44,095 bases of DNA from Bacteroidia bacterium. GTDB taxonomy: Bacteria > Bacteroidota > Bacteroidia > B-17B0 > Aurantibacillaceae. Shown in pieces: positions 2,178 through 42,251 of the stretch. Position numbers and translations under genes: made by a program. Location: positions 1-44,095 of the forward strand of contig JANYIQ010000169.1 of assembly GCA_025362575.1 (NCBI GenBank), in the 5' to 3' direction. The notes under the pieces were generated by a model. That model saw nothing but the letters and a program-made list of their open reading frames with translations. It did no database searches and had not been told where the DNA came from. The stretch's first letter is position 1; each line of letters begins with the position of its first letter.

Positions 2178-5100
2178 TTATCCCACCGTTATTCTCACCA
2201 CCACTTTAGTTCCAATCGCTTCCCCTCCTTCATCGTACAAATCAACAATTTCAAGTGATTGAATGTTTTTATCTTCTTTCAATAAATCCAGTCGTTCCTG
2301 AGTAACAATTAAGGCTGTAGATTTGTGATAGGTCTCTTTACTATTCTTGTTTATTTCTTCTGCTTTTTTTCTTCCGATGCCATTATCGGTAACCGAGCAT
2401 TCCAGAACACCATCTTTTTCAAAGAAGTTAACTTCAATTAAGCCGCGTTTTCCATCAATATTCTTCAGACCATGCTTGATCGCGTTTTCAATAAAGGGCT
2501 GTAATAACATTGGTGGAATTTTCACGTAATCTTTTTCAATATTTTCGCCTACCGTAATTTTATAATCAAATTTATCCCCATTACAGAACTTTTCAATAAG
2601 CAAATAATTTTCCAGAGTGCTTACTTCCTCTTCTAAAGTAATAACTGCGTTTCGGGAATTATCCAATATCTGTCTCATCAATCGCGAGAACTTAGCCAAA
2701 TAATATCTGGCGGCTTGCTCATTATCTGTTCCAATTTGCGACTGAATGGAATTAAGCGCGTTGAAAATAAAATGCGGATTCATTTGCAAACGCAAGGCCT
2801 TTTGCTCGAGCTCCATCACTTCTTTTTCGAGTTGCAGTTTATTCTGTCCTTCCTGCGCCTTTTCTTTAATGCTATTCACCCGCCATTTAAAGATGACAAA
2901 AATAACAGTAGCTCCTATCAATATCATTAATGTGATGAACCACCAGCGCAGCCAGATCGGTGGTGTTATGGTGAACTTAAAACTTACCGGCCTTTTATTC
3001 CAGACACCATCTTCGTTGCAGGCTTTCACCATAAAATTATATTCGCCCGCCGCAAGGTTAGAATAATTAATGGCATGCTGCGGACTCACCGGTGACCAGT
3101 CCTTATCCGAGCCTTCTAATTTCCATTGATATTTCACTGCATCGGGATTACTGAAATTAATTCCCATGAAATCAAAACTAATGTTATTTTGATCGTAGGG
3201 CAATTCCAGATCACTTACTGTGTTCCAGTCGCCACAAAACTTTTTATACGGTGTATTTGAGATCGTTTCATTAAACAGTTTGACATCAGTAATACTTGTT
3301 ACCGGTTCATTTACATTCATTACAAGATTAGCAGGATCATATTTTGATAATCCATTAATAGTACCAAACCAAATGGTGCCATCTGTTTCACTCAGCACTG
3401 CATTTTGAACCGTTTCCACTCCGGTAAATCCCTCGCCTTTGCTGTAATGTTTTACATTCGTTATTTTTCTGTCATTATCAAACTCCAGATAATCCAATCC
3501 TTTTTCTGTTCCAACAAATAGATTATCCTTCAGGTCAAAGCTTAATAAATAGGCATTGGAAGAAGTTAAACCCACCGCTTCATTAAATGTTTTTACTTTG
3601 TAATCGCCCTGATACAAAGGAAAAGTCATGATACCACCATCCGTTGCCACCCACAAATAGCCGTTCTGATCTTCAGCAAAGCCACGAATGGTATTTGCCG
3701 GCAAATGGTTTTTGATATCAAGAAAATCAACCTGAACCGTATTGTCAAATATCATTCCTATCAATCCGCTTTCGGTAGCATACCATAACTGACCTTTCTT
3801 ATCGTAATGCAAACAAGCTAATCGATCACGCAATAAGCCTGAATTTTTAGCCGTAAAATTTACCAATTCCAATTGTGGTTTGCCCAGATCCATTTTATAA
3901 AGACCCATTCCGGCTGTGGCGATCCATAAATTTCCGTCCTTATCTTTTTTAATATCCCTAATGAATTTTTTTTCAAGTCCACCGATCGGATTAAAAGCAA
4001 TTCCATCATAAACGTAAAGTCCTTGTCCATCGGTTCCCAGATAAATATTTCCAAGATCATCTTCGCAAATGCTTTTCACTTTAAGATCAGCGAAACCACT
4101 ACTTGAGTTAAAGCCTTTGAATTTTCCACTATCCAAAACACTCACACCTTTATCATAAGTTGCGATCCATAAACGTTGCTTACTGTCGCGAAACACAGTG
4201 TAAATGTAATTTTCACTTAAGCCTGAGGTTTTATCATATTGCGTAAACTGTTTTCCAAAATAATTACAAGCACCTCCGCCCGATGTTCCAAACCAGTAAT
4301 TGCCGCTTTTATCCTGGGTAATGCAATGCACGTGATTATTTCCTAATCCTTCGTTGGTGCTAAGCCATGAAAATGTTTTGGCGTCTTTATTATACTGACA
4401 AACACCGTTGTTCAGTGTTGCGAGCCAAACGTTATTTCGATCATCAAAATAAATATCAAGAACAGTTTGTTTGTATAATTCAAGATCAAGATCGATCCGA
4501 AAAAATTTCTTTCCATCGAAAACATAAGCACCATCGCCATAAGTACCTATCCAAACATTTCCGGCCTCATCTTGTTTAATGCAGGTGATCACATTATTAG
4601 TGAAACCATTTGACTTGTCATATTTGATTGCTGAATAAGACTCACCATTGATCTTTAAATTATATAAGCCCTTCTTAGTAGCATCATCACTTCCGTACCA
4701 GACAGAATTATTCCGGTCAACCAATAAAGTATTTATATTCTTTCCTTTGTCTTTTAAAATGGTGGGGATATTTTTCGGAACAGTATCTTCCATCAATAAA
4801 ATTCCATCATCAGTTGCGAGCCAGGCGCTTCCTTTTTTATCGAGATCAATTTCACGAACAGCAACTCCATTAAGATGTTTTTTAAAAGAATTTCCATTGT
4901 AATACGACAAGCCATTCATGGTACCGATCCACAAATTCCTTTTAGAGTCTTCACGAATGCAAAAAACCTTATTGCTGCTTAATCCTTCCTTAACAGAATA
5001 ATTTCTAAATTCCTTTCCGTCGTAACGGCTTATTCCGCCACCCTGTGTTCCCATCCATAAATAACCGCGACTATCCTGTAGCAAACTATATACTTGCGAT

Positions 5101-5234
5101 TGAGCAACGCCGTCTTTTACAGAATAATTGTGAAAATTGTATTGCTGAGAAAAAGCCAGTTGGCAGTAAACAAAAAGCAGTAGGCAGTAAGCCGTCTTTA
5201 TATGAAGTAACTTATTCTTTTGATTCAGTTCCAT
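2178..5234 (-). CDS. Propeller/Y_Y_Y sensor histidine kinase (LytS-like)
   Basis: 1018 residues. A signal peptide (about 1-29, ending AFSQ) is followed by a long periplasmic domain of two-component-regulator propeller repeats (about 35-640; recurrent 'DxxGxLWxGT' and 'NxWIGTxGxG'). Then come a Y_Y_Y domain (about 665-760), one membrane helix (about 765-787), a coiled coil, a His_kinase domain with phosphoacceptor H821 in NPHFIFNALNS, and a HATPase with N-box QPFIENAIKHG (about 912-922) and G-box DNGIG. This is the hybrid-propeller sensor layout, but the receiver is a separate protein encoded directly downstream. The ligand is unknown; propeller sensors of Bacteroidota often detect surface glycans. 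The leader and signal-peptide codons consist largely of short repeats (see findings). Confidence 0.95.
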   Translation of the reverse strand: MELNQKNKLLHIKTAYCLLLFVYCQLAFSQQYNFHNYSVKDGVAQSQVYSLLQDSRGYLWMGTQGGGISRYDGKEFRNYSVKEGLSSNKVFCIREDSKRNLWIGTMNGLSYYNGNSFKKHLNGVAVREIDLDKKGSAWLATDDGILLMEDTVPKNIPTILKDKGKNINTLLVDRNNSVWYGSDDATKKGLYNLKINGESYSAIKYDKSNGFTNNVITCIKQDEAGNVWIGTYGDGAYVFDGKKFFRIDLDLELYKQTVLDIYFDDRNNVWLATLNNGVCQYNKDAKTFSWLSTNEGLGNNHVHCITQDKSGNYWFGTSGGGACNYFGKQFTQYDKTSGLSENYIYTVFRDSKQRLWIATYDKGVSVLDSGKFKGFNSSSGFADLKVKSICEDDLGNIYLGTDGQGLYVYDGIAFNPIGGLEKKFIRDIKKDKDGNLWIATAGMGLYKMDLGKPQLELVNFTAKNSGLLRDRLACLHYDKKGQLWYATESGLIGMIFDNTVQVDFLDIKNHLPANTIRGFAEDQNGYLWVATDGGIMTFPLYQGDYKVKTFNEAVGLTSSNAYLLSFDLKDNLFVGTEKGLDYLEFDNDRKITNVKHYSKGEGFTGVETVQNAVLSETDGTIWFGTINGLSKYDPANLVMNVNEPVTSITDVKLFNETISNTPYKKFCGDWNTVSDLELPYDQNNISFDFMGINFSNPDAVKYQWKLEGSDKDWSPVSPQHAINYSNLAAGEYNFMVKACNEDGVWNKRPVSFKFTITPPIWLRWWFITLMILIGATVIFVIFKWRVNSIKEKAQEGQNKLQLEKEVMELEQKALRLQMNPHFIFNALNSIQSQIGTDNEQAARYYLAKFSRLMRQILDNSRNAVITLEEEVSTLENYLLIEKFCNGDKFDYKITVGENIEKDYVKIPPMLLQPFIENAIKHGLKNIDGKRGLIEVNFFEKDGVLECSVTDNGIGRKKAEEINKNSKETYHKSTALIVTQERLDLLKEDKNIQSLEIVDLYDEGGEAIGTKVVVRITVG

Positions 5235-5300
5235 TGTTTATCGCAGTTTGTCTTTTCAGTCCCTGTAGTCTCTTTAATCCCTTACTTCTTTTAAGTCTCT
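5235..5300 (-). repeat. GGGACT/GAGACT-type repeat in kinase leader
   Basis: Read on the minus strand, the leader upstream of the kinase start contains purine-rich words GAGACTTAAAA, GGGATTAAA, GAGACTACA and GGGACTGAAAA, a degenerate tandem repeat of about 9-11 bases. It lies between the candidate -7 element and the start codon, so it would be transcribed. Confidence 0.45.
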
Positions 5301-5309
5301 TCTAATAAT

Positions 5310-5317
5310 CAAAGGTA
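5310..5317 (-). promoter_or_regulatory. Candidate Bacteroidota -7 element for the kinase-regulator operon
   Basis: The minus strand reads TACCTTTG here, an exact match to the Bacteroidota -7 consensus TAnnTTTG, 76 bases upstream of the kinase ATG. I see no good TTTG -33 element at the usual spacing. Confidence 0.35.
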
Positions 5318-5398
5318 AAAAACGCTTTCTATCTATATGCCTGCGAATAATAAAATACCACAAATAAGACCGAAAAGCCGCCTAATTTTGAACCATAT

Positions 5399-7768
5399 AT
5401 GCTACGAAAGGCCTTAAATAGCTACAGAAATCACAAACCGACTCTCAAACAATGGCGAAACCGATTGTTTTTACTTGGATCCATCGCTTTTGGCTTTTGG
5501 TATGCGAATTGTTTACCAGAAACTCTGTTTAACGACAGCACTTCTACTGTATTACTGGATAAAGACGGGAATTTACTAGGTGCCAAAATTGCCGACGACG
5601 GACAATGGCGATTTTCGGCAAGTACTTCGGTTCCAAAAAAATTTGAGACTTGTTTGATACAGTTCGAGGATCGGAATTTTAAACAGCATTTTGGGATCAG
5701 TTTTAAAGGGATTGGAAGAGCAGTTGTTCAAAATGTGCGAAATAAAAAAATAGTAAGTGGTGGAAGTACATTAACAATGCAATTGGCTCGCATTATGCGG
5801 AAAAATCCACCAAGACATTTTCTGGAAAAAATTATTGAGATGTGCATTGCCACCCGAATGGAAATGCGTTACAGTAAACACGACATTTTAAATTATTATG
5901 CTTCGCATGCGCCCTTCGGAAATAATGTGGTGGGATTAGAAGCAGCGGCCTGGCGATATTTTGGAAGAAGTGCTAATTCTTTAAGTTGGGCCGAAAGTGC
6001 AACACTTGCTGTTTTACCAAATGCACCCGGATTAATTTACCCCGGTAAAAATCATAAACGCTTGTTAGATAAACGTAATCGTTTGTTGAAGCGCTTGTAT
6101 GACATAAAACAATTGGACGAAACGACCTATCAGTTAGCATTAAGCGAACCTTTGCCCGATAAGCCATTGCGACTGCCACAATTGGCGCCACATTTATTAA
6201 CGCGATTAATTAAAGAGGGTCATAAGGGGAAAACCATTAACAGCACCATTGATATTAATTTACAGGAAAAAGCTACAGAACTTTTGCAAGCGCACAGTTT
6301 ACGATTACAAGAAAACAAAATTTATAACGGCGCAGTTTTAATTACCTCCGTTAAAACGGGAAAAGTTTTAGCTTATGTGGGAAATACCAAAGTCAATGAT
6401 AACGAACAAAGTTGCGATGTTGATTGCGTTGCAGCGCCAAGAAGCACAGGCAGTATTTTAAAACCCTTTTTATATGCAAAATGTTTAGAGGATGGGATAA
6501 TTACACCAACCATGCTGGTTCCTGATATACCAACACAATTCGGAAGTTTTTCGCCAAAGAATTTTTCATTGCAGTATGATGGGGCGGTGCCGGTGAACAA
6601 AGCTTTATCGAGAAGTTTAAATATTCCAATGGTGAGGCTACTGAATGAATATGGACTTGAAAAATTTCATCGCGAATTAAAAAAATTAGGTTTAACCACT
6701 TTACATAAACCGGCGCAACATTACGGACTCTCTTTAATATTAGGAGGAGCAGAAGCAAAATTATGGGATCTGGGACAGGCCTACACACAAATGGCTCAAA
6801 CTTTAAAGTTTAGTGAAACAAATGAGTTGTGTGCAGTCGATCAAAAACACATGAACATTAAACATCAAACACCAAACATCAAACCTCAAACAAACCGCGC
6901 TTGCATCTACAAAACATTTGAAGCGATGGTTGATGTGAATCGTCCGGATGAAGATGGGAACTGGAGAGCATTTGCATCGGCACAAAAAATTGCCTGGAAA
7001 ACCGGAACCAGTTTTGGATTCAGAGATGCCTGGGCGATTGGAGTAACACCCGATTACATGGTTGCTGTATGGATCGGTAATGCAGATGGAGAAGGCAGAC
7101 CGGGTTTAACCGGAATAAAAGCAGCAGCTCCCTTATTGTTTGATATTTTTTCTCAACTACCAAAATCGCCACAATGGTTTTCTGCACCCATGGATGAAAT
7201 GAGTAAAGTTGCTATTTGCCATGAGAGCGGTCATCGTGCAACCGACATTTGCGAAAAAGCAGATACGGTCTGGATTCCGAAAACCTGTTTGATAAGTGTG
7301 GCTTGTCCTTACCATCAAATTGTACACTTGAGTAAGAATGGAAAAGAAAGAGTGGACAGTGATTGCGAAAGTGTTTATAATATGAAACACGTGAATTGGT
7401 TTGTGCTGCCGCCTTTGGTTGAGAAATATTATAAATTCAATCATCCCAATTATAAAGTGCTGCCCGATTTTAAAGCAGAATGTTTGACCAAAGTTTCGGA
7501 TAGGGCATTTGCAGTTCTTTACCCGAAACCAAACAGTAAAATTTATGTGCCCATTGAAATTGATGGTAAAGTTGGAAGAACTGTTTTTGAAGCAGCCCAT
7601 CGAAACATCAATACCAAAATTTACTGGCATTTAGACGAGAATTTTATTGGGGAGACCAAAGAGATACATCAATTGGCTTTAAACCCAAGCGTAGGAAAAC
7701 ATAAACTGATATTGGTAGATGAGAATGGAATTGCGGTGACGATAAAATTTGAAGCGATGGGGAATTAA
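5399..7768 (+). CDS. pbpC: Penicillin-binding protein 1C
   Basis: 789 residues. Bifunctional peptidoglycan synthase of the PBP1C class. Membrane anchor about 22-38. Glycosyltransferase domain about 50-215, with catalytic E90 in EDRNF, the GGSTLTMQLAR motif (121-131), and RYFGRSANSLSWAESATLA. Transpeptidase domain about 300-600, with S352-x-x-K355 (STGSILKP), S406-x-N408 and K534-T-G. A BiPBP_C domain ends the protein. A 7-base tandem repeat encodes residues 485-499 in a linker before the KTG region. Bacterial alpha-2-macroglobulins are classically encoded beside pbpC; here the macroglobulin lies 22 kb away. The last 16 codons plus stop are duplicated at 13116-13165. Confidence 0.95.
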   Translation: MLRKALNSYRNHKPTLKQWRNRLFLLGSIAFGFWYANCLPETLFNDSTSTVLLDKDGNLLGAKIADDGQWRFSASTSVPKKFETCLIQFEDRNFKQHFGISFKGIGRAVVQNVRNKKIVSGGSTLTMQLARIMRKNPPRHFLEKIIEMCIATRMEMRYSKHDILNYYASHAPFGNNVVGLEAAAWRYFGRSANSLSWAESATLAVLPNAPGLIYPGKNHKRLLDKRNRLLKRLYDIKQLDETTYQLALSEPLPDKPLRLPQLAPHLLTRLIKEGHKGKTINSTIDINLQEKATELLQAHSLRLQENKIYNGAVLITSVKTGKVLAYVGNTKVNDNEQSCDVDCVAAPRSTGSILKPFLYAKCLEDGIITPTMLVPDIPTQFGSFSPKNFSLQYDGAVPVNKALSRSLNIPMVRLLNEYGLEKFHRELKKLGLTTLHKPAQHYGLSLILGGAEAKLWDLGQAYTQMAQTLKFSETNELCAVDQKHMNIKHQTPNIKPQTNRACIYKTFEAMVDVNRPDEDGNWRAFASAQKIAWKTGTSFGFRDAWAIGVTPDYMVAVWIGNADGEGRPGLTGIKAAAPLLFDIFSQLPKSPQWFSAPMDEMSKVAICHESGHRATDICEKADTVWIPKTCLISVACPYHQIVHLSKNGKERVDSDCESVYNMKHVNWFVLPPLVEKYYKFNHPNYKVLPDFKAECLTKVSDRAFAVLYPKPNSKIYVPIEIDGKVGRTVFEAAHRNINTKIYWHLDENFIGETKEIHQLALNPSVGKHKLILVDENGIAVTIKFEAMGN
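6854..6891 (+). repeat. AACATCA heptamer tandem repeat inside pbpC
   Basis: Five consecutive 7-base units (AACATTA, AACATCA, AACACCA, AACATCA, AACCTCA) plus a partial AAC. Because 7 is not a multiple of 3, translation gives a 7-residue period (NIKHQTP / NIKPQTN). The segment lies in a linker of the transpeptidase domain and keeps the frame. The same word family recurs at 30104-30139. Confidence 0.8.
7719..7768 (+). repeat. Direct repeat copy A: 3' end of pbpC
   Basis: These 50 bases (last 16 codons plus stop) recur at 13116-13165 with 47/50 identity. The three differences are AAA/AAG, GAA/GAG and TAA/TGA, all synonymous. A further similar stretch, GTAtACCGAGCTT against GTAcACCGAGCTT, lies at nearly the same distance after each copy. 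Confidence 0.9.
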
Positions 7769-13408: not shown

Positions 13409-16396
13409 ATGGCTAAGAGAGCACTTATTATATTATTAACCTTGTTATATGCTTGCGGAGGGCCACCAAAGCCGGTGCCTTTTCCTGCCAATGAAGATGA
13501 GTTTCCTCAACCGCAGACTCAAAAAATAAAAATGCCCGAGGCAAATAAAACCTCATGGCTCCCCTCATTCAGAGAAAAAAAACCGGCCCGGGTAAGCAAA
13601 GTAACCTACGAATATGCGAAAGATTCTGTTTTCAGGTTAGAGGCTTTTCAAACCATGCATCAACCAATAGATTCTAACATTATTAAACTAGAAGACATCC
13701 CCTCTACGCCTTTGGCATTTATTTCTCTTAAAAAAAATAAAATTCATCCTTCCATTATCCAATTGGGTCAGGCGCAAAAAAACAAGGTTGAGCGCGCCAG
13801 CGTTGAAAGCATTTTTACAAAAGGTATTTTAGAATTGGGTCAAGACCAGGGTTTGCCGGGCACATCTGTAAAAAGCATTGTTCAGGATAAATTAGGACGC
13901 TTATGGATGTCGACCGACAATGGTGTTTGCGTTTACAATGGCGAAAGTATTTATACTTGGTACAAACGTCAGGGTATGAGCCGTGATGTGAAAAATAATT
14001 TATGTATTGATAAGAACGGACATATTTGGGCCGCAGGAAATGGCGTTGACGAAATAATTCCCGAAAAAGGGATCATCCGTCATTACGGAAAAAAAGAAGG
14101 GTTGAACACCGATCGCGTTGTAGCGGTAGATATTGATAGCCTCGGAAAAATTTATATCTCTGAACTTAATGGTATAGATATTTACGATCCTGTCGAAAAA
14201 ACTTCAGTATATGTAGGTCGTGAACAAGGTATGGATCCGGGCCTGAATATAAATCATGTAACCGTTGACAGGCTAGGCAGAATATGGGCAGCCAGTAATT
14301 GCGGCGGCATTAATATTATTGACGCGAAATCAGAAAAACTATATCATCTTAAAGATAAACAGGGATTAGGAAATAATGATTGTCGCTCTATTATTGTAGA
14401 TAGATCCAATAAAATCTGGATGGGAAACTGGTACGGTGGCGTAGATTATTACGATCCGGCTACCGGATCGTTTTTGCATTTGCGATTAAAGCACGGCTTA
14501 AGCATGCTCTACATTAACCAGGTGATGCAAGATAGCAAAGGACATATTTTGATCTCTAACCTCGATCGTGGTCTGGATATTTTTGACCCACTGAAAAGAA
14601 AATTCTGTCACCTTTATGGAAAACAAGGCGTAGTAAAAAGTACAGTGTTTTGTACGTTTGAAGATAACGAGAACAGAGTCTGGTTTGGAACAAATGGCGC
14701 CGGTGTTCTTTGTTACGATCCTACAAATGGCGACATTAATAATTATAATACCCAGTGGTGGTCAACCCGCCGGCCTATACTGGCTTTATTACAAGATAGC
14801 AAAGATAATATATGGTTAAGCACAAATGGCGCCGGAAGCGAGATCTATAATCCGGACAAGGCACAACGCATTAAGATTAATCATGGTGATGATTGGACCA
14901 ATGCCTGGCAAATGGATATGATGGATGACGGAAAAGGTAATATTTATTTTTGCAACTCTTATAAAGTGGTAAAATATGTAGAGGGCGCTTCTGAATTTGT
15001 TTGGTGGAACGAAGAGACCGGATTACCATTTAATGGAATAGAAAGTTTGTTATTAGATAATGACCATTTATTATTGGGAGGCCAGCACGGCTTAATGCGT
15101 TTCAATTTAGTGAATGAGAATTCATATCTTTTAAAAGTAGAGAAGGATACAGTGGAAATGGCCGTGAATTGTTTGTACAGTAGTAATGGAAAAGTTTATA
15201 TTGGCACTTACAATTCGGGTTTGCATATTTTTGATCAGAAGAATTCGAGCATTAAACATTTTTCAAAAGCGCAAGGCTTTGTTAATGCCATAACTTCGAT
15301 AGTAAGTGATAAAAAAGGAAGGGTTTGGATCGCAACATCGGGCGGGGGTTTAAAGATGTTTGATACCGAGACGAATTCGATCACTACCATAACCACTACC
15401 AATGGATTAGCCGAAATGACTGTAACCAGTTTACTGATCAAAGATGATAAAGTGTATGCCGGAACCGCAAAGGGTTTGTCGATAGTAGATATTTCGAAAG
15501 ATAAATTCACAATTAAAAATTTAGGAAAGGCACAGGGCTTCCAAACTTCCGATTTTAATACCAGAGCGGTAATTGAAGATAAAAAAGGAAAGATCTGGTG
15601 GGGCATTGGTGATGTACTTACTATTTATGAACCTTCCAACTATCAGCAAATGCCGCATAAGCCAAGTATTACGGCCATTGATATCATGGAAAAAGAAAAA
15701 CATTTTGATATTGATACCACTAATTTGGATCTGATCTTGGCTACGGATACCATTTGGACCCCAATGCGCGATCTTTACCATTTCAGATCTACTTTAAACA
15801 ATCTTCCAGGCACTACCGATATTAAATGGAAAAGTACGGAGGGCGAATATCAATTACCTACCGAATTAATTTTGAAATACGATCAAAACCATATCACTTT
15901 TCATTTTACGGGAAATTATATCGGCAATAGAGATAAAGTGCGCTACCGTTACATTTTAGAAGGTGTAGATAAAACATGGAGCCCTGTAGAGAGTGAGCCA
16001 AAAGTAGATTACCGGAACATTGCTCCGGGAAATTATACATTTAAAGTTAGCAGTAGTAATTTTGGAAGCACCTGGAGTGAGCCCACTTCTTTTTCGTTTC
16101 GCGTTACACCACCTTGGTGGAAAACAACTTTAGCTTATGTTGTATATGTTTTAATTGTTATCGGAATAATGTTTGGATATAACAAGATTCACACCGCACA
16201 ACTAATAAAACGACAAAAAGAATTAGAGCAACTGGTGAAGCGACGCACCAAAGAAATTGAAGAGCAAAAGGAAGCAATTGAGGATAAACAAAAGGAGATC
16301 CTTGATTCTATTCATTATGCAAAACACATCCAATCGGCCTTAATGACCAGCGAAAAAAACATAAGCCGAATGTTAAATAAATTGAAGAAAGATTAG
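13409..16396 (+). CDS. Propeller/Y_Y_Y membrane sensor ending in a bare coiled-coil tail (no output domain)
   Basis: 995 residues. The N-terminus MAKRALIILLTLLYAC has a lipobox-like C16, so it may be a lipoprotein or have an uncleaved signal. After a Pro-rich stretch come propeller repeats (about 145-740; 'DxxGRLWMSTDNGV', 'DNENRVWFGTNGAGV'), a Y_Y_Y domain (about 825-895) and a membrane helix (about 905-925). A cytoplasmic coiled coil then ends at residue 995 with KQKEILDSIHYAKHIQ and 20 further residues. In related proteins this linker leads into a SpoIIE/PP2C or kinase domain; here it stops. The last 45 residues match the end of the TPR protein at 40923 without gaps (25 identities). The downstream DNA shows no detached output domain. 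Confidence 0.9.
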   Translation: MAKRALIILLTLLYACGGPPKPVPFPANEDEFPQPQTQKIKMPEANKTSWLPSFREKKPARVSKVTYEYAKDSVFRLEAFQTMHQPIDSNIIKLEDIPSTPLAFISLKKNKIHPSIIQLGQAQKNKVERASVESIFTKGILELGQDQGLPGTSVKSIVQDKLGRLWMSTDNGVCVYNGESIYTWYKRQGMSRDVKNNLCIDKNGHIWAAGNGVDEIIPEKGIIRHYGKKEGLNTDRVVAVDIDSLGKIYISELNGIDIYDPVEKTSVYVGREQGMDPGLNINHVTVDRLGRIWAASNCGGINIIDAKSEKLYHLKDKQGLGNNDCRSIIVDRSNKIWMGNWYGGVDYYDPATGSFLHLRLKHGLSMLYINQVMQDSKGHILISNLDRGLDIFDPLKRKFCHLYGKQGVVKSTVFCTFEDNENRVWFGTNGAGVLCYDPTNGDINNYNTQWWSTRRPILALLQDSKDNIWLSTNGAGSEIYNPDKAQRIKINHGDDWTNAWQMDMMDDGKGNIYFCNSYKVVKYVEGASEFVWWNEETGLPFNGIESLLLDNDHLLLGGQHGLMRFNLVNENSYLLKVEKDTVEMAVNCLYSSNGKVYIGTYNSGLHIFDQKNSSIKHFSKAQGFVNAITSIVSDKKGRVWIATSGGGLKMFDTETNSITTITTTNGLAEMTVTSLLIKDDKVYAGTAKGLSIVDISKDKFTIKNLGKAQGFQTSDFNTRAVIEDKKGKIWWGIGDVLTIYEPSNYQQMPHKPSITAIDIMEKEKHFDIDTTNLDLILATDTIWTPMRDLYHFRSTLNNLPGTTDIKWKSTEGEYQLPTELILKYDQNHITFHFTGNYIGNRDKVRYRYILEGVDKTWSPVESEPKVDYRNIAPGNYTFKVSSSNFGSTWSEPTSFSFRVTPPWWKTTLAYVVYVLIVIGIMFGYNKIHTAQLIKRQKELEQLVKRRTKEIEEQKEAIEDKQKEILDSIHYAKHIQSALMTSEKNISRMLNKLKKD

Positions 16397-20670: not shown

Positions 20671-23600
20671 ATGAAAATTAATTCATACATAAATTTTAGT
20701 ACCATGAAAATTAAGATAGTGAATATACTGACTGCGGGTCTTTTATTTTTAGCACCGGCCATAAGTTTGGCACAAGCTCCTGCGCTAGGAACTGCAGCAA
20801 ATTTTGTTCTCTTCTCTTCAGTGGGAGCGGTTACAAATTCAGGAATAACTTACATGACACATTTAACAGGACATGTTGGCGCAAACAGTGGAGCCATTAG
20901 TGGTTTCGGGAACGTTGATGGAAATATGTATCCCGGTGGGCCTCAAAGCGCACAGTGTGCTACTGATCTATTGATCGCTTATAATCAATTAAATGCAACG
21001 GTGCCTTCTTTCTTTCCGGCTCCATTGCTTGGTAACGGTCAGATCCTTACTGCAGGTGTATATTCAATTTCGGCGCCTGCTACTTTGAATCTGAATCTAA
21101 CATTAGATGCCTTAGGAAATCCTAATGCTGTTTTTATTTTTCAGATCCAGGGATCTTTTTCAACAAATACTTCTTCTAAAGTAAAATTAGTAAACGGTGC
21201 TAAGGCATGTAATGTGTTTTGGAAAGTAGAAGGTTTAGTTAGTATGGCGCCCGGAACACATATGAAAGGAACTGTCATTGCAAATAATGCTGCAATTAAC
21301 ATGACCGCCGGTGATACTTTAGAAGGCAGAGCGCTTTCTACAAATGACGCTGTTTCGGTGAACACAACTTTAGGTTACATACCCATTGGTTGCGGTAGCC
21401 CTTTATTGACTGGTCCTGTTGCTCCCAATCTTGCAACCACAGCTTGTTACGCCTTATTTTCAACGAATGGTCCGGTTTCAAATGTTGGCGCAACTAATGT
21501 TGTTGGTGATATTGGGACGAACAACGGTTCAACCACCGGATATAGCACATTAACTACAACAGGTACAATACATCCAATTCCTGACGGCTCTACATCACAA
21601 TGTGCAACCGATCTTGGAGTAGTATATAATTATTTGAATACATTAGCTACAGATATTACTTTATTATTTCCTGCACAATTTGGAAACAATCTTGTACTTA
21701 CGCCTCATACTTATTTAATGAATGGTGCGGTAACTTTAACAGATTCTGTTTTTTTAAACGCACAAGGAAATGCTAACGCTGTATTTGTTCTGCAAATAAA
21801 AGGTGCTTTATCTGCCAGCTCGCTTTCAAAAGTTGTTTTGATAAACGGTGCGCAATCAAAAAATGTTTATTGGATGGTTGATGGTGCAGTAAGTCTTAAT
21901 ACAGGTTCTATTTTTAGAGGAACTATTATTTGTAATAATGCTGCAATACTTTTTGCAACCGGTGTTACTTTAGATGGAAGGGCTTTAACTACAACAGGTG
22001 CATTAAGCACTTCAGCAGCTACAGTAACTATTCCTGCTTCAGTTAGTGTTATTTCACCACCTACAAATATAACAGCATGCGTGGGTTCATCGGCGAGCTT
22101 TACAATAGCTGCATCGGGTTCGTCTTACCAGTGGAGAAAAGGCACTACAAATTTAATTAACGGTGGAAATATTTCGGGCGCTACAACAGCAACCCTTACA
22201 ATTAATCCTGTTGGTTTAAGCGATGCCGCCACTAACTACAATGTTGTAATTACCGGAGCATGCGCTTCTAACTTTACTTCAACTAACGTTTCTTTAACAG
22301 TAAACCCTGCTACCGGTATTACCTCGCAACCATCCAGCCAGGTATCTTGTCCGGGTAACTCGGTAAGTTTTACAACTGCTGCAAGTGGATCAAGTTTAAC
22401 TTATCAATGGAGAAAAGGAACAGTAAATTTAATTAACGGAGGAAATATTTCGGGAGCAAATACTGCTACCTTAACTATTAATCCGGTAAGTATTACCGAT
22501 GCTGCAACAAACTATAACGTTATCGTTACAGGAGCTTGCGCGCCAAGTGCAACTTCTACAAACGTTTCTTTATCAATTAGCGGTGCGATCATAACCTCGC
22601 AACCTTCCAACCAGGCATCTTGCCCTGGTAACTCAGCAAGTTTTACCACTACTGCAAGTGGTACAGGTTTAACTTACCAGTGGAGAAAAGGAACAGTAAA
22701 TTTAATTAACGGAGGAAATATTTCGGGAGCAACTACTGCAACCTTAACTCTTAATCCCGTGAGTATTTCTGATGTTGCAACAAATTACAATGTTATTGTA
22801 ACAGGAGCTTGTGCGCCTAATGCAACTTCTACAAACGTTTCTTTATCAATTAGCGGTGCAAACATAACCTCACAACCTTCAAGCCAGGCTGCATGTCCGG
22901 GTAACTCAGTAAGTTTTACAACTGCTGCAAGCGGAACAGGTTTAACATACCAATGGAGAAAAGGAACTGTTAATTTAATTAATGGCGGAAATATTTCAGG
23001 AGCAACTACAGCAACTTTAACTATTAATCCTATCAGTGTTGCTGATGTTTCTTCAAATTACAATGTAGTTATTACCGGAGCATGCGCTCCTAATGCTACT
23101 TCTACAAATGTTTCATTGAGTATTGACAGTCCAAATATTGTTACCCAACCAACTAATCAATCGGCTTGCCCGGGAAGTTCAGTTAGTTTTGTTACAGCTG
23201 CAAGCGGTGGCTCACTAACTTACCAGTGGAGAAAAGGAAACATTAATCTTGTTAACGCTGGAAACACTTCAGGGGCAACTACAGCTACCCTTACTCTTAA
23301 CCCGGTAAGTGCTTTAGATGTTGCATCTAACTATAATGTTATTGTGATGGGATCATGTGCTCCAAACGATACGTCGATCATGGTATCGCTTTCTTCTGGC
23401 ACGGCAATAGTTGCAATGGCCAGCAGTAATTCTTCAGTTTGTGTAGGAAGTTCTATCAACTTAAGTGCGCAAAGCGTTACAGCCGGATCATATACATGGA
23501 CAGGCCCAAGCGCTTTCTCATCTAACTTACAAAATCCTACCATCGCAAATTCTGCAACAACAAACGCAGGTACTTATTCATTAAGTGTTGCATCTGGAAC

Positions 23601-23937
23601 ATGCGGTTTCGCTTCAACCACAACTGCAGTTATAGTAAACGATTGCTCAGTAACAGAATTTTTTATCCCGGAAGGTTTTTCACCGAACGGCGACGGAATA
23701 AACGATGTATTCTTTGTTAGGGGAATAAGTATTTATACTGAGAACCACTTTACAGTATTTAACCGTTGGGGAGATAAAGTTTATGAAACCGACAATTATC
23801 AAAATACCTGGAGTGGCAAAGTTACAACAGGAATAAGGATCGGAGGCGATGAATTGCCGGTAGGAACATATTTTTACCTACTTGATCTGAACAATGGAAC
23901 ACCCGTTTATAAAGGAACCATTTACTTAAATAGATAA
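20671..23937 (+). CDS. Ice-binding-like (2x DUF3494) adhesin with five Ig-like repeats, T9SS type-B cargo
   Basis: 1088 residues from the first ATG; an ATG at 20704 ([12 protein letters not shown]) gives a cleaner signal peptide ending SLAQ. Two DUF3494 beta-solenoid domains follow (about 38-238 and 255-455; each has '[24 protein letters not shown]' and '[12 protein letters not shown]' type strands). Five Ig-like repeats of about 91 residues run to about 905, each with '[28 protein letters not shown]'. Next comes one PKD-like segment, and then a CHU_C type-B sorting domain (about 990-1088: '[12 protein letters not shown]', '[10 protein letters not shown]', '[10 protein letters not shown]'). 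It should be a long surface adhesin; ice binding is only one known activity of the fold. First gene of the operon with PorP/SprF and OmpA proteins. Confidence 0.92.
22030..23395 (+). repeat. Five tandem Ig-like repeats at DNA level (273-base period)
   Basis: The TGGAGAAAAGG word recurs at 22132, 22408, 22681, 22954 and 23227, giving spacings of 276, 273, 273 and 273 bases. The middle copies share long identical stretches around AATTTAATTAACGGAGG, so unit number could change by recombination. Confidence 0.85.
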
Positions 23938-27054: not shown

Positions 27055-28701
27055 ATGAAAATACATTCAAAACTTAATACAATACAAATGAAAAATAATT
27101 TACTTATTCTTGCAACCACCTTCACTATCCTGGCGTCTACGGGCACCAGCATAGCACAAGCGCCTACTTTAGGCACAACCGTCAATTTCGTGCTTTTCAC
27201 AAGTGCTGGAGCAGTGAGCAACATAGGAACCTCACAAATAACAGGTAATGTTGGAACAAATAGTGGTTCAAGTACCGCTTTTGGCAACGTTAATGGACAA
27301 ATGCACGATAATGATCTTGTGAGCGCAGCAGCGGCAACGGATCTTACTACTGCATACAATCAATTGAATGGTACAACTCCAACTGCTTTTCCTGCGCCTT
27401 TATTAGGAAACGGAACAACCATGAATGCAGGGGTGTATTCTATTGCCGGAGCAACCACTTTGAATTTAAACCTTACTCTAAACGGACAAGGAAATGCAAA
27501 CGCTGTATTTATTTTTAAAATACAAGGTTCTTTTTCTGCTAACGCAGGTGCCAGGGTTATTCTAACAAATGGAGTTAAAGCATGTAATGTGTTTTGGAAA
27601 ATTGAAGGTTTAGTTAGTATGGCAGCAGGATCAACAATGCGTGGAACAATTATCGCTAACAATGCAGCTATTAACATGAACGCACAAGATACGTTAGAAG
27701 GAAGAGCGCTTTCTATAAATGGAGCAGTTACCGTTAACGGGGTTATGGCTTATACACCTATTGGTTGTGGAAGTCCAGTTCTTACAGGCCCGGCGGCACC
27801 TAATTTAGCGTCTACCGGTTGTTATGCAATATTTTCTGCTAATGGACCTGTTACTAATACAGGTATTACTTCAGCTATTGGTGATGTTGGAACAAATGTT
27901 GGATTATGCACAGGGTTTAATACCTTAACTATTGCAGGTACTGTACACCCTATTCCTGATGGAAGTACTGCTGCTTGTGCTGCAGATCTTCTAAATATTT
28001 ACAATTATTTAAATACATTGCCTTCTGATATTGAATTATTATATCCGGCGCAATTCGGTGGTAATTTAGTACTCACACCACATACTTACATAATGAAAGC
28101 TGCTACTACTTTAACGGATACACTTTTTCTAAACGGATTGAATAATCCAAATGCTGTATTTGTTATTCAAATTAACGGGTCACTTTCAACAAGCACCTAT
28201 GCAAAAGTAATTTTAAAAAATGGTACTCAGGCAAAAAACGTATACTGGAAAGTTGATGGAGCAGTTAATATTAATAATTATTCCGTTTTTAAAGGAACGA
28301 TCGTTGCTAATAATGGAGCAATAGCGTTAAATACAGGTGTTAATTTAGATGGAAGAGCATTAACAACAAATGGTGCATTGGCTACCAATGCCTCTACTGT
28401 TAACATTAATGGAGCATGCGGGTCTTTAGGTTTTGCTTCTTTAACAAGTACCGTAGATCTTGTTAGAATAACACCAAATCCATTCAGCGCATTAATTAGA
28501 GTAACTTTGGTAGACGCCTCTTTGGTTAACTTGGCACAATTGAACGTTGTGAATGTATTAGGCGAAGTTGTTCTTACAACAACATTAACAAAAGAAGTAA
28601 CAAGTCTTGAAACAAGTCATCTACCTTCAGGGATCTACTTTTACAAAGTAACTGGAAATAATAAAGTGATTCAATCCGGTCGATTGATCTCACAACAATA
28701 A
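27055..28701 (+). CDS. Ice-binding-like (2x DUF3494) protein, T9SS type-A cargo
   Basis: 548 residues from the first ATG; an ATG at 27088 gives MKNNLLILATTF and a signal peptide ending SIAQ. Two DUF3494 domains (about 40-238 and 255-455) are close paralogues of those in the gene at 20671, down to shared phrases such as 'ACNVFWKxEGLVSMA' and 'PIGCGSPxLTGPxAPNLA'. The Ig-like repeats are absent and the end is a type-A sorting domain (RITPNPFSALIRV ... VLGEVVLTT ... GIYFYKVTG). The same passenger thus leaves the cell by two kinds of T9SS signal. It is monocistronic, bounded by terminators on both sides. Adhesion or matrix function is inferred. Confidence 0.92.
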   Translation: MKIHSKLNTIQMKNNLLILATTFTILASTGTSIAQAPTLGTTVNFVLFTSAGAVSNIGTSQITGNVGTNSGSSTAFGNVNGQMHDNDLVSAAAATDLTTAYNQLNGTTPTAFPAPLLGNGTTMNAGVYSIAGATTLNLNLTLNGQGNANAVFIFKIQGSFSANAGARVILTNGVKACNVFWKIEGLVSMAAGSTMRGTIIANNAAINMNAQDTLEGRALSINGAVTVNGVMAYTPIGCGSPVLTGPAAPNLASTGCYAIFSANGPVTNTGITSAIGDVGTNVGLCTGFNTLTIAGTVHPIPDGSTAACAADLLNIYNYLNTLPSDIELLYPAQFGGNLVLTPHTYIMKAATTLTDTLFLNGLNNPNAVFVIQINGSLSTSTYAKVILKNGTQAKNVYWKVDGAVNINNYSVFKGTIVANNGAIALNTGVNLDGRALTTNGALATNASTVNINGACGSLGFASLTSTVDLVRITPNPFSALIRVTLVDASLVNLAQLNVVNVLGEVVLTTTLTKEVTSLETSHLPSGIYFYKVTGNNKVIQSGRLISQQ

Positions 28702-37129: not shown

Positions 37130-40100
37130 ATGCGCTTTTGGTGTAAAATAACGCTATTTCTATTATTTGCTTTTACAACAAGGGCACAGGATAATGGATT
37201 CTTTGATCAGATCTGGTTAGATGAAGGACTCTCTCAAAGTAGTATTACCAATATTACGCAGGATAACCAAGGTTATGTTTGGTTTGGAACCCAGGATGGC
37301 CTGAACCGATATGACGGAAAACAGATCGACCGCTTCAATTTTCAGCCCTTTAATCCCAACTCCATTTCAGGAGATAATATTTCAGATATTGCTTCTGACT
37401 CTTCGGGTAATATCTGGGTATTAAACACAACCGGAGTTTTGGATCTGCTAAATCTAAAAACCTTTAAAGCCACTCACATTTCTGAACTCTTAAAACTTAA
37501 TTCTGCAGGGCGTCGATTTATTCTAAAAATATGGTTGCTCAACAATCGCGTTTTTCTGTCGACCTCAAAAGGATTTTGCGAACTACTTTCAAAGAACCGA
37601 CAATACGAACTGAGTTACTTTAATTTCAAACGCAATCAAAATAATGCTTCGGTTTTATCCATTTATTCTGCCTGTTCTGACAACTCAGGGAATTTATACA
37701 TTGGTTCCAATGAAGGCGTATACCTTAACTCTGCCGGATCAGGTGACTTCGTATTCTTTACGCCATCAAAAAACCGGGAAGAAAACTTAAATAAAGAGTG
37801 TCGTGTTATTTTTTACAAGAACAATACCTTGTATTTTTCTCAGGAAAATTTATTTTACGCCTACGGAAAAGCGGATTCTAAATTAAATTTATTTTCCATC
37901 GGATCTCCTTCATTGGGCCTTATAAGTTCGGGCTTGTGTGATAACAGAAATAATTTCTGGTTAGGAACAGCCAGCAACGGAATCTTTGTTCTATCGGGAA
38001 ATACAGATGGAACTTTTAAAGAAGAAAAACATTTTACAGATAACAGTGCCATCAAATATGGTCTAAAATGTAATTTCATTAATTGCCTTTACCAAAGTAA
38101 ACATCCTAATGAGGATATTGTATGGATCGGTTCACGTGATGCAGGTGTGTTCAGTTATAGTTACTCTAAAAATTCTTTTCAACTGGTTTCTTCGCTTTTA
38201 AAAGATGAGAAGCCTAGTTTTTTCTCTATCGTTAAAGACCGTGAAAACGTTGTGTGGTCGGGGACTTATGCCGGCATTTATAAAATTGATCGCAAACTAA
38301 AAACATACTCTTTCATTAACTTAAGAAGCATCATGCCAAGTGCCAGGCCAATTGATGCGCTGTACTGTGATGCTAACGATGATGTTTGGGTAGCCGCGTC
38401 GAATTCGCTTTATAAGATCAATAAGAAGAAAAATGTTCTGATCCCTTTTGCAGAACAAATTTTTCCGGATAAACGAAGCCTGATCATTCACGTCATTGCC
38501 ATTAATGACGATAGTTTATTGTTGGGTGCAAATGTTGGACTTGCCGTTTTCAATAAGAAAACAAAAAACACTAGACTAATTAATTCGGTCCTCATCAATG
38601 ATTCTGCTGTAAAAATTACCGGTGTACGTACTATGTTCATCGACAGTAAGAAGAATTGGTGGATCGGTACTGACTTAGGCCTGATCTTTTTAGACAAACA
38701 AAATAATAAAAATAAGATCTTCAAATACGATCCATCCAACAAAGAAAGTATGCTTGCTAACATCAGCATGGATGTGAACGAAGATAAATCTGGCAACATA
38801 CTTGTTGCAACTACCAAGGGAATAAGTGTTATTAAAGATCCTGCCGGTGGAAAGTTTGAGAATTTTCATATTCAGCAAGGTTTAACAAATAACTTTATTT
38901 ACGGCTTACTGGCAGACAAGCAAGGTAAATTCTGGATGAGCACCAATTACGGGATCTCTGTATTTGATCCGGTTCAAAAAAAATTCAGAAGCTACCGCGG
39001 TTCAGATGGAGTGTTCATCAATGAGTTCAACTATAGCGGTTTCTATGCTTCGGCCGATGGAGAATTATTATTCGGCGGATTAGGCGGCATAGTAAGTTTA
39101 TATCCTGAGCAGCTTGTGAAAAATGTTTTGCCACCAACTGTATTATTGCGTTCGTTCAAAATTAATCAGAAGAATTCAGACTCCTTATTGTTAAAGAATT
39201 CTTTACTCAATTTTAAGCACGATCAAAATGACATTTACCTGGAATTTTCTGTTCCGGATTTTTCCGGAAAGAACAGAACGCAATTATTATATAAACTCAA
39301 AGGCGGAGTAAAAACCGATTGGGTCGAATTGAACGATGCCTATTCCCTATCCCTTGCCAATCTTGCACCGGGAGCCTACGCTCTCGAAGTTAAAGCCATT
39401 AATCCGGATGGAATTGAATCGCAAAGATCATTTGTATTTACTTTCATTATTGAACCGCCGTTCTGGCAAACCTGGTGGTTTTACATTTTTCTTGGATTGC
39501 TTTTAATTGGAATGAGTTGGTTGATCTACCGTAATCGCCTTCGCAAAAAAATTGAACATCTCAAAGAGATCGAATACATTCGTCAGGAAGAAAACGAAAA
39601 AGTAAGAAAAGCCGCTGCTTTAGATCTGCACGATGAGTTTGGCAACGGACTTACCCGAATATCCATGCTTGTAGAAATGGCGAAAATAAAAATGCCAAAA
39701 GAAAATACTGAGTCACTGAAATTTTTAGATATTATTTCTGAGAATTCTTCGCGGCTTTATCAAGGCACCAAAGATTTTATATGGTCCATTAATCCCGGTA
39801 ACGATAATCTTTTTGAGATCATTATCCGGATCAAAGATTTTGGTGATGAATTGTTTTATGGTACCGGAATAAATTTTGAGATAATAGGATTAAATGAGGA
39901 ACTCAAAAAACTGAAGCAATTACCCGGAAGCGGCCGTAACATTGCCATGATCTACAAAGAGGCTCTTTCCAACATCATGAAGCACGCAAAGGCTAATGCC
40001 GTTTCATTAAGCATTGAACAAAGTCCTGCAGAAATAACTCTCGCCCTAAAAGATAACGGCAAAGGTTTTGATCAGAAAGAGAACAAGAATAGTTTCGGGA

Positions 40101-40207
40101 TCTCTAACATGAATCAAAGAGCCTCAAGAGTTGGAGCACAGATAAAAATAGATTCTGAAATAAATGCCGGAAGCACGATCAGATTAATCATAACTAAAAC
40201 CAATTGA
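37130..40207 (+). CDS. Propeller/Y_Y_Y sensor histidine kinase (NarL-partner type)
   Basis: 1025 residues. Signal peptide about 1-20 (TTRAQ). Propeller repeats span about 25-660 ('DNQGYVWFGTQDGLNRYDG', 'DSSGNIWVL', 'DKQGKFWMSTNYGI'), a Y_Y_Y domain about 690-775, and a membrane helix about 780-800. A HisKA_3 dimerisation domain has H834 in LDLHDEFGNGL, and a HATPase has N-box EALSNIMKHAKA (about 944-955) and DNGKGF (976-981). The Lys and Asp around the His are typical of kinases that phosphorylate LuxR/NarL-type regulators, as does the regulator encoded two bases downstream. Its output class differs from that of the LytS-like kinase at 2178. Confidence 0.95.
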   Translation: MRFWCKITLFLLFAFTTRAQDNGFFDQIWLDEGLSQSSITNITQDNQGYVWFGTQDGLNRYDGKQIDRFNFQPFNPNSISGDNISDIASDSSGNIWVLNTTGVLDLLNLKTFKATHISELLKLNSAGRRFILKIWLLNNRVFLSTSKGFCELLSKNRQYELSYFNFKRNQNNASVLSIYSACSDNSGNLYIGSNEGVYLNSAGSGDFVFFTPSKNREENLNKECRVIFYKNNTLYFSQENLFYAYGKADSKLNLFSIGSPSLGLISSGLCDNRNNFWLGTASNGIFVLSGNTDGTFKEEKHFTDNSAIKYGLKCNFINCLYQSKHPNEDIVWIGSRDAGVFSYSYSKNSFQLVSSLLKDEKPSFFSIVKDRENVVWSGTYAGIYKIDRKLKTYSFINLRSIMPSARPIDALYCDANDDVWVAASNSLYKINKKKNVLIPFAEQIFPDKRSLIIHVIAINDDSLLLGANVGLAVFNKKTKNTRLINSVLINDSAVKITGVRTMFIDSKKNWWIGTDLGLIFLDKQNNKNKIFKYDPSNKESMLANISMDVNEDKSGNILVATTKGISVIKDPAGGKFENFHIQQGLTNNFIYGLLADKQGKFWMSTNYGISVFDPVQKKFRSYRGSDGVFINEFNYSGFYASADGELLFGGLGGIVSLYPEQLVKNVLPPTVLLRSFKINQKNSDSLLLKNSLLNFKHDQNDIYLEFSVPDFSGKNRTQLLYKLKGGVKTDWVELNDAYSLSLANLAPGAYALEVKAINPDGIESQRSFVFTFIIEPPFWQTWWFYIFLGLLLIGMSWLIYRNRLRKKIEHLKEIEYIRQEENEKVRKAAALDLHDEFGNGLTRISMLVEMAKIKMPKENTESLKFLDIISENSSRLYQGTKDFIWSINPGNDNLFEIIIRIKDFGDELFYGTGINFEIIGLNEELKKLKQLPGSGRNIAMIYKEALSNIMKHAKANAVSLSIEQSPAEITLALKDNGKGFDQKENKNSFGISNMNQRASRVGAQIKIDSEINAGSTIRLIITKTN

Positions 40208-40209
40208 CA

Positions 40210-40922: not shown

Positions 40923-42251
40923 ATTATTAAAACCAAAATACTGTCTCTACTTGTTCTTTGCCTGGTCATAGGATGCAGCATTTCGTTTGCCCAAAATAAT
41001 CGAAGTATAGATTCCATTCTTGTATTACTTAAATCGAGTAAGGAAGACAGCCTGAAAGTAAGTCACCTTGTAAGATTATGCTGGGAATATAAAAACCTTG
41101 GTGATTTTGATAAAGGACTCGCTGTTGGAAAAGAAGCTTTAGATCTTACAAAAAAACTCAAATTTAAAAAAGGCGAAGTTCAGGCACTGAATAACATTGC
41201 AGTTATTTATTACAGTTCCACAAGTTATCCTAAAGCCCTTGACAATTATTTTGAAGCCTATCGCATCGCTGTTGAAATTGGTGATAAACAACAGCAGGCC
41301 GGCATTCTCAGTAATGTGGGTGTTATATACGACAATAAGCAAAATTATGAGAAGGCTCTGGAATACTATTTAAAATCTCAGGAAATGGCCGAAAGCACAA
41401 AGAACAAAACGCTTATGGCCAATAACCTCAATAATATCGGAGGTGTCTATTTATACCAAAACGATTACAAAAGAGCGCTGGAATATTTTTTAAAAGCACT
41501 TGCGATCAAAGAAGAATTAGGGAATAAGAACGGAATTGCGAACTCTTTAATTAATATCGGAACCTTATATTACAGCTTGGAGGATTTCCCCAAAACAATG
41601 AAGTACTTTTTATATGCCCTAAAAATAAAAGAAGAAATAAAAGATAAGGCCGGAATTGCTACTGTTTGCGGCAATATCGGGGCTCTTTACATTCAAATGG
41701 GGCGTTTCGACAGAGCCGAAAGTTATTTACTAAGATCACTTGCCATTTCCGAAGAAATAAAGTCCTTCGACGACATGAGTAATGCTCATCTTAATTTAAG
41801 TGATCTGTATGACTCTACTAAAAAACTGAGCCAATCTCTTTTTCATTACAAAAAATACAAGGCTTGTCAGGATTCGATCTTTAATGAGGAAAAAAGTAAG
41901 GACATGGGCCGACTGGAAGCCAGAAGTGATTTTGATAAACAACAGGCGGTGTCAAATGCTGAGCATAAAAAAGAATTGGAATTATCCGATGAGCGTGAGA
42001 AGAGACAAACTTTAGTGAGTTATTCAGTTGGAGCCGGCTTACTTCTGGTTCTGTTGTTCGCCGGATTTCTTTTCAATCGCTTTAGAGTGATCCGAAAACA
42101 AAAAGCCATAATTGAGCATCAGAAAAAAATTGTAGAAGAAAAACAAAAGGAAACTATGGATTCCATTTATTACGCAAAACGCATTCAGGGTTCGTTATTA
42201 ACCTCAGAGTTGTATTTTGAAAGGGAGTTGAACCGTTTAAATAAGAACTAA
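40923..42251 (+). CDS. TPR membrane protein with bare coiled-coil tail; probable non-canonical (ATT) start
   Basis: The frame is open from 40905. ATG, GTG and TTG are all absent until GTG at 41316, in the middle of a TPR. Yet codons from ATT at 40923 encode a convincing signal peptide (IIKTKILSLLVLCLVIG ... SISFAQ) and more than 100 residues of TPR helices, so I place the start at or near 40923 (442 residues). About six TPRs (60-330; 'NNLNNIGGVYLYQNDYKRALEYF') are followed by a coiled coil, a membrane helix (about 365-385), and the tail KQKETMDSIYYAKRIQ plus 20 residues. No kinase or phosphatase follows. It lies 56 bases after the NarL regulator on the same strand, so it may belong to that operon. 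It converges on the SDR gene (3-base gap). Confidence 0.8.
   Translation: MIKTKILSLLVLCLVIGCSISFAQNNRSIDSILVLLKSSKEDSLKVSHLVRLCWEYKNLGDFDKGLAVGKEALDLTKKLKFKKGEVQALNNIAVIYYSSTSYPKALDNYFEAYRIAVEIGDKQQQAGILSNVGVIYDNKQNYEKALEYYLKSQEMAESTKNKTLMANNLNNIGGVYLYQNDYKRALEYFLKALAIKEELGNKNGIANSLINIGTLYYSLEDFPKTMKYFLYALKIKEEIKDKAGIATVCGNIGALYIQMGRFDRAESYLLRSLAISEEIKSFDDMSNAHLNLSDLYDSTKKLSQSLFHYKKYKACQDSIFNEEKSKDMGRLEARSDFDKQQAVSNAEHKKELELSDEREKRQTLVSYSVGAGLLLVLLFAGFLFNRFRVIRKQKAIIEHQKKIVEEKQKETMDSIYYAKRIQGSLLTSELYFERELNRLNKN

Follow-up and report, generated by a model that had tools for sequence, protein, structure and literature searches.

Membrane sensors of uncultured Bacteroidota with a conserved C-terminal tail and their probable, separately encoded PP2C partner: a putative split SiaA/RsbU-type phosphatase

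Results and discussion

Two unrelated membrane sensors with a common tail

The window, a stretch of 44,095 nucleotides from a Bacteroidia bacterium, codes on its forward strand for two membrane sensors with unrelated heads and closely similar C-termini. The first (13409..16396, 995 aa) combines an N-terminal signal, a Reg_prop propeller, a Y_Y_Y domain, one predicted TM segment read by eye (TTLAYVVYVLIVIGIMFGY, 16124..16180), a coiled coil and a tail of 45 aa (EEQKEAIEDKQKEILDSIHYAKHIQSALMTSEKNISRMLNKLKKD plus stop codon, 16259..16396). The second (40923..42251, 442 aa from its probable ATT start) has a signal peptide, a TPR array, one TM segment likewise predicted by eye (LVSYSVGAGLLLVLLFAGFLF, 42012..42074), a coiled coil and again a tail of 45 aa (EHQKKIVEEKQKETMDSIYYAKRIQGSLLTSELYFERELNRLNKN plus stop codon, 42114..42251). 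Both tails are predicted to dock a phosphatase. The start of the TPR-tail gene is likely an ATT codon, or else the product of a sequencing error, because there is no ATG, GTG or TTG near the signal peptide (40923-40960), where the frame past the previous stop reads QYKIFFIIKTKILSLL.

The two tails align without gaps with 25 of 45 residues identical and a BLOSUM62 score of 129, as against a mean of -20 (sd 14) and a best score of 52 among 100,000 shuffles. The positions and length of the tails, their 25 identities and the unrelatedness of the heads reported in a first-pass annotation of this DNA were thus all reproduced. Both sensors end 30 residues past the D of the DSIxYA motif, and neither contains an output domain or gives a SpoIIE match; hence the one-piece SiaA/RsbU architecture, which unites sensor, linker and PP2C in a single polypeptide, is absent from the two proteins.

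Two further propeller sensors in the window carry histidine-kinase outputs, thereby displaying a similar type of head on differing outputs. They are encoded at 2178-5234 and 37130..40207 (+), next to response regulators of the LytTR and LuxR types; the latter sensor, with a HATPase kinase output of its own, lies upstream of the LuxR-type regulator (40204-40866) and the TPR-tail gene. Elsewhere in the window, a PorP/SprF gene and an OmpA-family gene lie between the genes (20671-23937 and 27055-28701) of two proteins that combine an ice-binding domain with a type IX secretion sorting domain.

The tails form a large class with a conserved stop

A genome-wide search of the window's own genome (G000; here G numbers denote genomes, mostly MAGs, and L numbers loci) with one tail recovered 69 places, which on being read out one by one fell into two classes. 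One comprises about 30 tail proteins ending 29-39 residues past the D of DSIxYA, with one at 55, and the other about 37 genes whose DSIxYA motif continues into a SpoIIE/PP2C domain. A further 121 tails, stopping at 25-34 residues, were recovered from 79 loci of other Bacteroidota. The median stop across all 151 tails lies 30 residues past the D, with 149 falling within 25-34 and the remaining two at 39 and 55; one-piece phosphatases end 242-287 residues past the same residue. Because these tails, about 30 from G000 and 121 from elsewhere, have a conserved end, the window pair represents two members of a large class and not two truncations. Conservation of both stop and sequence across the 151 tails rules out random truncation of the two window sensors, as the first-pass annotation had argued; its stronger statement that the tails stop at the same point holds as a conserved range and not as an exact position.

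The proposal that the tail is a portable module was also borne out, in that it is attached to differing sensor heads, mostly TPR and some propeller. Among 80 tail proteins scanned, 76 gave TPR-family matches, and in 76 a segment of strong hydrophobicity precedes the motif by about 30 residues. No other part of these proteins is conserved as well as the tail (mean identity of 63% and 49%, versus 20-31% elsewhere). Six genomes of the genus have tails, at 29-63 copies each. Pfam and NCBIfam hold no model for the tail itself, which is caught, weakly, by the SiaA profile alone. Two tail genes (L056:2-2065 and L069:3822-6725) lack a stop and continue in frame into the signal peptide of the next protein (SLNQLNKNILSCLLLLLSFVAFS and LKQLNKKVLSCFLLLVSFVSFS).

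A putative, separately encoded catalytic half

Reading of the neighbors of tail genes in unrelated MAGs uncovered a stand-alone SpoIIE domain of 232-236 aa directly adjoining them in L055, L060, L065 and L111. The L065 protein lacks a linker, its beginning (METQNFFILYKPKDIVSGDFYY) coinciding with the first strand of the PP2C fold, and the tails end at approximately the position where this strand begins in one-piece relatives. In such bare PP2Cs no more than about 5-20 residues precede the first strand, leaving the chain without an N-terminal linker helix, and in the class sample the PP2Cs ranking below them all belong to longer frames. G000 encodes a single copy of 235 aa outside the window (G000:C323:19202-19909), which matches Pfam SpoIIE (PF07228) with 74.6 bits, the gathering cut-off being 25. 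The SGDFY, ADCTGHG, TDG and DD metal-binding aspartate motifs are invariant in five aligned bare PP2Cs. The first-pass annotation had envisaged a phosphatase supplied by another gene, and a stand-alone PP2C with a start matching the tail stop, often in the next gene, is what was found.

When the bare PP2Cs were searched for residues specific to the partner, only a short list resulted, namely F9, H29, E37, C42, S90 and A110, which are not tied to docking. The conserved F9 precedes the first strand, and the conserved H29, E37 and C42 lie in a loop (positions 29-42, in L134:1483-2190) that is longer than in most one-piece enzymes; both the loop and F9 are possible docking or specificity features. 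In G198 (L326-L329) the tails bear a private variant, KCMMPxEKW, in several copies and the bare PP2C is among the most divergent, which looks like co-divergence.

Several lines of evidence relate the tail to the linker of SiaA-type enzymes. Residues 931-989 of the window propeller protein, which include most of its tail, match positions 378-435 of the SiaA profile NF038263 with an E-value of 2.7e-6, a match far below the curated whole-protein cut-off, placing a SiaA-type linker helix in this protein. The bare PP2C of the same genome matches positions 433-657 of the NCBIfam SiaA profile, such that window tail and bare PP2C tile it. The linker helix (positions -12 to +14) is closely common to tails and one-piece enzymes. 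The signature E-K-Y-I-x-R/K-x-L is conserved in the tails and weak in the one-piece enzymes, although in some one-piece TPR/propeller-linker-SpoIIE sensors an EKYI motif runs straight into the PP2C; a tail-specific signature would be expected if contact is made without a covalent tether. A single-chain model of the L065 tail and bare PP2C, read through the stop codon, was predicted with a pLDDT of 91 and has two helices before the fold, and the model of the one-piece control L085 likewise has helices before the fold. Among solved structures, SiaA-PP2C (6k4e) alone was matched by sequence, and it also ranked first by fold; the read-through model aligns to it over 241 residues at a Z of 29.7, and this alignment starts inside the first tail helix. 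As the stop codon was read through and the alignment was dominated by one-piece enzymes, this model alone cannot prove docking and serves as a consistency check.

Gene neighborhoods and evolutionary history

In 10 of 22 bare-PP2C loci a tail gene is situated directly upstream on the same strand, 9-138 nt from the bare PP2C, where about 0.13 such cases would be expected assuming 3,000 genes per genome. One further locus of the 22 has a tail gene next downstream, and seven more genomes outside this set show the same arrangement of tail gene and bare PP2C. The bare PP2C of G000 has no tail gene adjacent to it. G006 and G001 have a tail gene between a common upstream gene and the bare PP2C; this tail gene is missing from G002 and G003.

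A quick tree groups 24 bare PP2Cs into a single clade (SH-aLRT 98) nested among the one-piece enzymes. One-piece relatives hold both halves in register (ALLTSEKYLEKQLPDYFILYQPKDIVSGDFY); the L189 enzyme, from a genome without a bare PP2C, has an unbroken join (DSIYYARRIQRALLTSEKYLEKQLPDYFILYQPKDIVSGDFY), and L085 resembles tail plus bare PP2C along its whole length. The simplest reading would be a single split of a one-piece enzyme, after which the tail spread to many sensors.

Co-occurrence of tails and bare PP2Cs

We surveyed a class sample of 247 genomes, in which genes were called as open frames, with a profile built from the tail-specific part. A bare PP2C was found in single copy in 17 of them, and the tail profile gave matches in all 17 and in 13 others. 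The matches in these 13 were weak, and nearly all were one-piece linkers running into a PP2C or lay inside long frames; that in G176 is a methyltransferase and that in G148, also weak, is a 20-aa frame with an internal stop. Each of the 17 genomes was confirmed to have at least one tail stopping at the expected place. Tails are thereby present in 17 of 17 class genomes with a bare PP2C versus none of 230 without (Fisher p 1e-26). At least six families (f1, f16, f21, f31, f34 and f38) each hold genomes with both and genomes without, and the co-occurrence is therefore not the effect of one lineage. Within the genus six genomes have both, that of G002 having its bare PP2C cut by a contig end, and two (G005 and G007) have neither while retaining 36-41 one-piece PP2Cs. 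In a phylum sample, under strict cut-offs, 394 of 395 genomes lacked both and G000 alone had both.

In the forward test, a bare PP2C was found in 28 of 29 genomes picked solely for having a tail, about seven of the 29 being repeats of genomes from earlier sets (identical coordinates). The sole exception is the MAG G632, in which no bare PP2C was found although the tail gene L087:3684-5144 is present; the gene next to it (5129-5761) codes for a second tail-like protein. G213 has a bare PP2C and only one or two tails were found in it. As the genomes are mostly MAGs, absences may be gaps. The association with stand-alone SpoIIE/PP2C genes, which the first-pass annotation had put forward as a check, is almost perfect. 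Tails and bare PP2C come and go by lineage, and their co-occurrence does not in itself establish contact.

The same annotation had held that close homologues continuing into a full PP2C domain would refute an adaptor class. One-piece propeller homologues with a PP2C (about 1,060-1,225 aa) do exist in the genus. Propeller homologues of the tail type (about 850-1,030 aa) come from genomes with a bare PP2C, where the two forms are found side by side, and in the two genus genomes without a bare PP2C one-piece propellers only were found. Because both forms coexist with the bare PP2C and the one-piece form stands by itself where the bare PP2C is absent, these homologues do not overturn the adaptor reading, and the pattern fits a modular swap rather than decay.

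A proposed split phosphatase

We propose, with a probability of about 0.83, that these proteins constitute a split SiaA/RsbU-type PP2C, with a single catalytic subunit common to many membrane sensors, which provide it with the regulatory linker in trans. The tail would be the detached linker of such an enzyme of the PPM/SpoIIE type, cut just before the catalytic fold. In the sensor as predicted, a TPR or propeller head lies outside the cytoplasm and is followed by a single membrane helix and an intracellular coiled coil ending in DSIxYAKRIQxxLLTxEKYIxR/KxL. Its putative partner is the one bare PP2C subunit, which lacks a linker and starts directly with the first strand of the fold. Through their tails, dimeric sensors probably bind this subunit and so rebuild the helix bundle that one-piece enzymes have in cis, and signal-driven changes in the linker would set the dimer state and activity of the PP2C. 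That tail dimers should act in this way is proposed from the dimers of known enzymes. The linker helices of RsbU pack on alpha1 and dimerize the PPM domains, resulting in activation, and RsbT acts in trans on this linker (PMC12143880). SiaA-PP2C dimerizes via alpha1-alpha3 and dephosphorylates SiaC (PMC7647112), and SpoIIE is activated by dimerization via switch helices (PMC5468089).

The first-pass suggestion of adaptor sensors using a separately encoded phosphatase gains support from the start/stop match, the co-occurrence and the adjacency. Its other option, that the tails compete for a phosphatase, is unsupported, because genomes rich in one-piece phosphatases and without a bare PP2C have no tails. 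The same genomes bear on the idea that tails heterodimerize with the linkers of one-piece SpoIIE enzymes, modulating or blocking them, with the bare PP2C being incidental. The closeness of the linker helix in tails and one-piece enzymes and the presence of about 37 one-piece enzymes in the same cell would suit such pairing, but G005 and G007 keep their numerous one-piece PP2Cs and have no tails precisely where the bare PP2C is absent, and the 230 class genomes without it, many of them rich in one-piece enzymes, have no tails either. Together with the frequent position of the bare PP2C downstream of a tail gene, this renders the idea improbable. Even less credible is that the tail is a mere conserved coiled-coil end, with sensors and bare PP2C co-inherited by lineage or operon hitch-hiking and making no contact. 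Presence does follow lineages and tail genes do expand in tandem arrays; however, tails and bare PP2C are present or absent jointly within one genus and within several families, no other part of the tail proteins is as well conserved as the tail, and hitch-hiking cannot maintain 29-63 scattered copies, because most tail genes are unlinked to the bare PP2C.

A reversal of sign, with a free PP2C that is active and tails that keep it inactive at the membrane until a signal releases it, appears to us unlikely. Either direction of control would suit the results obtained here, and the bare PP2C, judging from its catalytic motifs, could be active alone; the precedents point the other way, in that an ordered linker dimer activates the phosphatase in RsbU (PMC12143880) and SpoIIE is activated by dimerization through its regulatory helix (PMC5468089).

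Returning to the split phosphatase with a linker supplied in trans, we consider it likely that it operates as a hub-and-spoke network, in which 30-60 membrane receptors converge on one free PP2C as their output, a phosphatase equivalent of the many chemoreceptors served by one CheA. Its target is perhaps a SiaC-like phosphoprotein. SiaB and SiaC genes are both present in G000 (C133), with a SiaB-like DUF6272 gene (L049:453-1010; we take DUF6272 to be the SiaB family) and a SiaC-like PF09345 gene (L049:1022-1393) adjoining a one-piece PP2C. At L005 and L045 the PP2C neighbors are DUF7793 proteins, one with a weak SpoIIAA-like match. The SiaB- and SiaC-like genes and the DUF7793 neighbors are candidate substrates of the phosphatase network.

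Implications and comparison with known systems

Most descriptions of bacterial PP2C signaling enzymes concern fusions of sensor and catalytic domain. In the present case the enzyme appears to be split exactly at the boundary between linker and catalytic domain, and dozens of inputs would be integrated by one subunit; gene patterns indicate that a group of uncultured Bacteroidota has sensors, dozens per cell, that would feed one separately encoded phosphatase. If true, this would explain a large class of orphan membrane proteins of the TPR and propeller types, numbering 29-63 in each genome of one genus, for which annotation gives no output. As the natural split provides ready-made components for reconstitution, the role of the PP2C linker as a portable, trans-acting control element also becomes a testable mechanistic question. 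We found no description of such a split system in the open-access literature, which is weak evidence of novelty.

Among the closest parallels is SiaA of Pseudomonas aeruginosa (SiaABCD; PDB 6k4e), which likewise has a membrane sensor, a helical linker and a SiaA-type PP2C. However, in SiaA a single polypeptide includes the sensor, whereas here linker and catalytic domain come from different genes and dozens of sensors appear to rely on one catalytic subunit. In arrays of MCP chemoreceptors with CheA/CheW, many receptors devoid of enzymatic output use one soluble signaling enzyme in common via a conserved cytoplasmic tip. Those arrays resemble the present system in having many output-less receptors and one common enzyme, but their proteins are unrelated and the enzyme is a kinase instead of a phosphatase, and we claim no relation between the two. 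The RsbU/RsbT and RsbP/RsbQ systems of Bacillus subtilis also control a PPM phosphatase through a dimeric helical linker; RsbU has this linker in cis, with RsbT as an additional activator, whereas here the sensor itself would provide the linker. Finally, the one-piece TPR- and propeller-linker-SpoIIE sensors of Bacteroidota share the DSIxYAKRIQ linker and, in the case of the propellers, the same heads, and differ in having the catalytic domain in the same chain.
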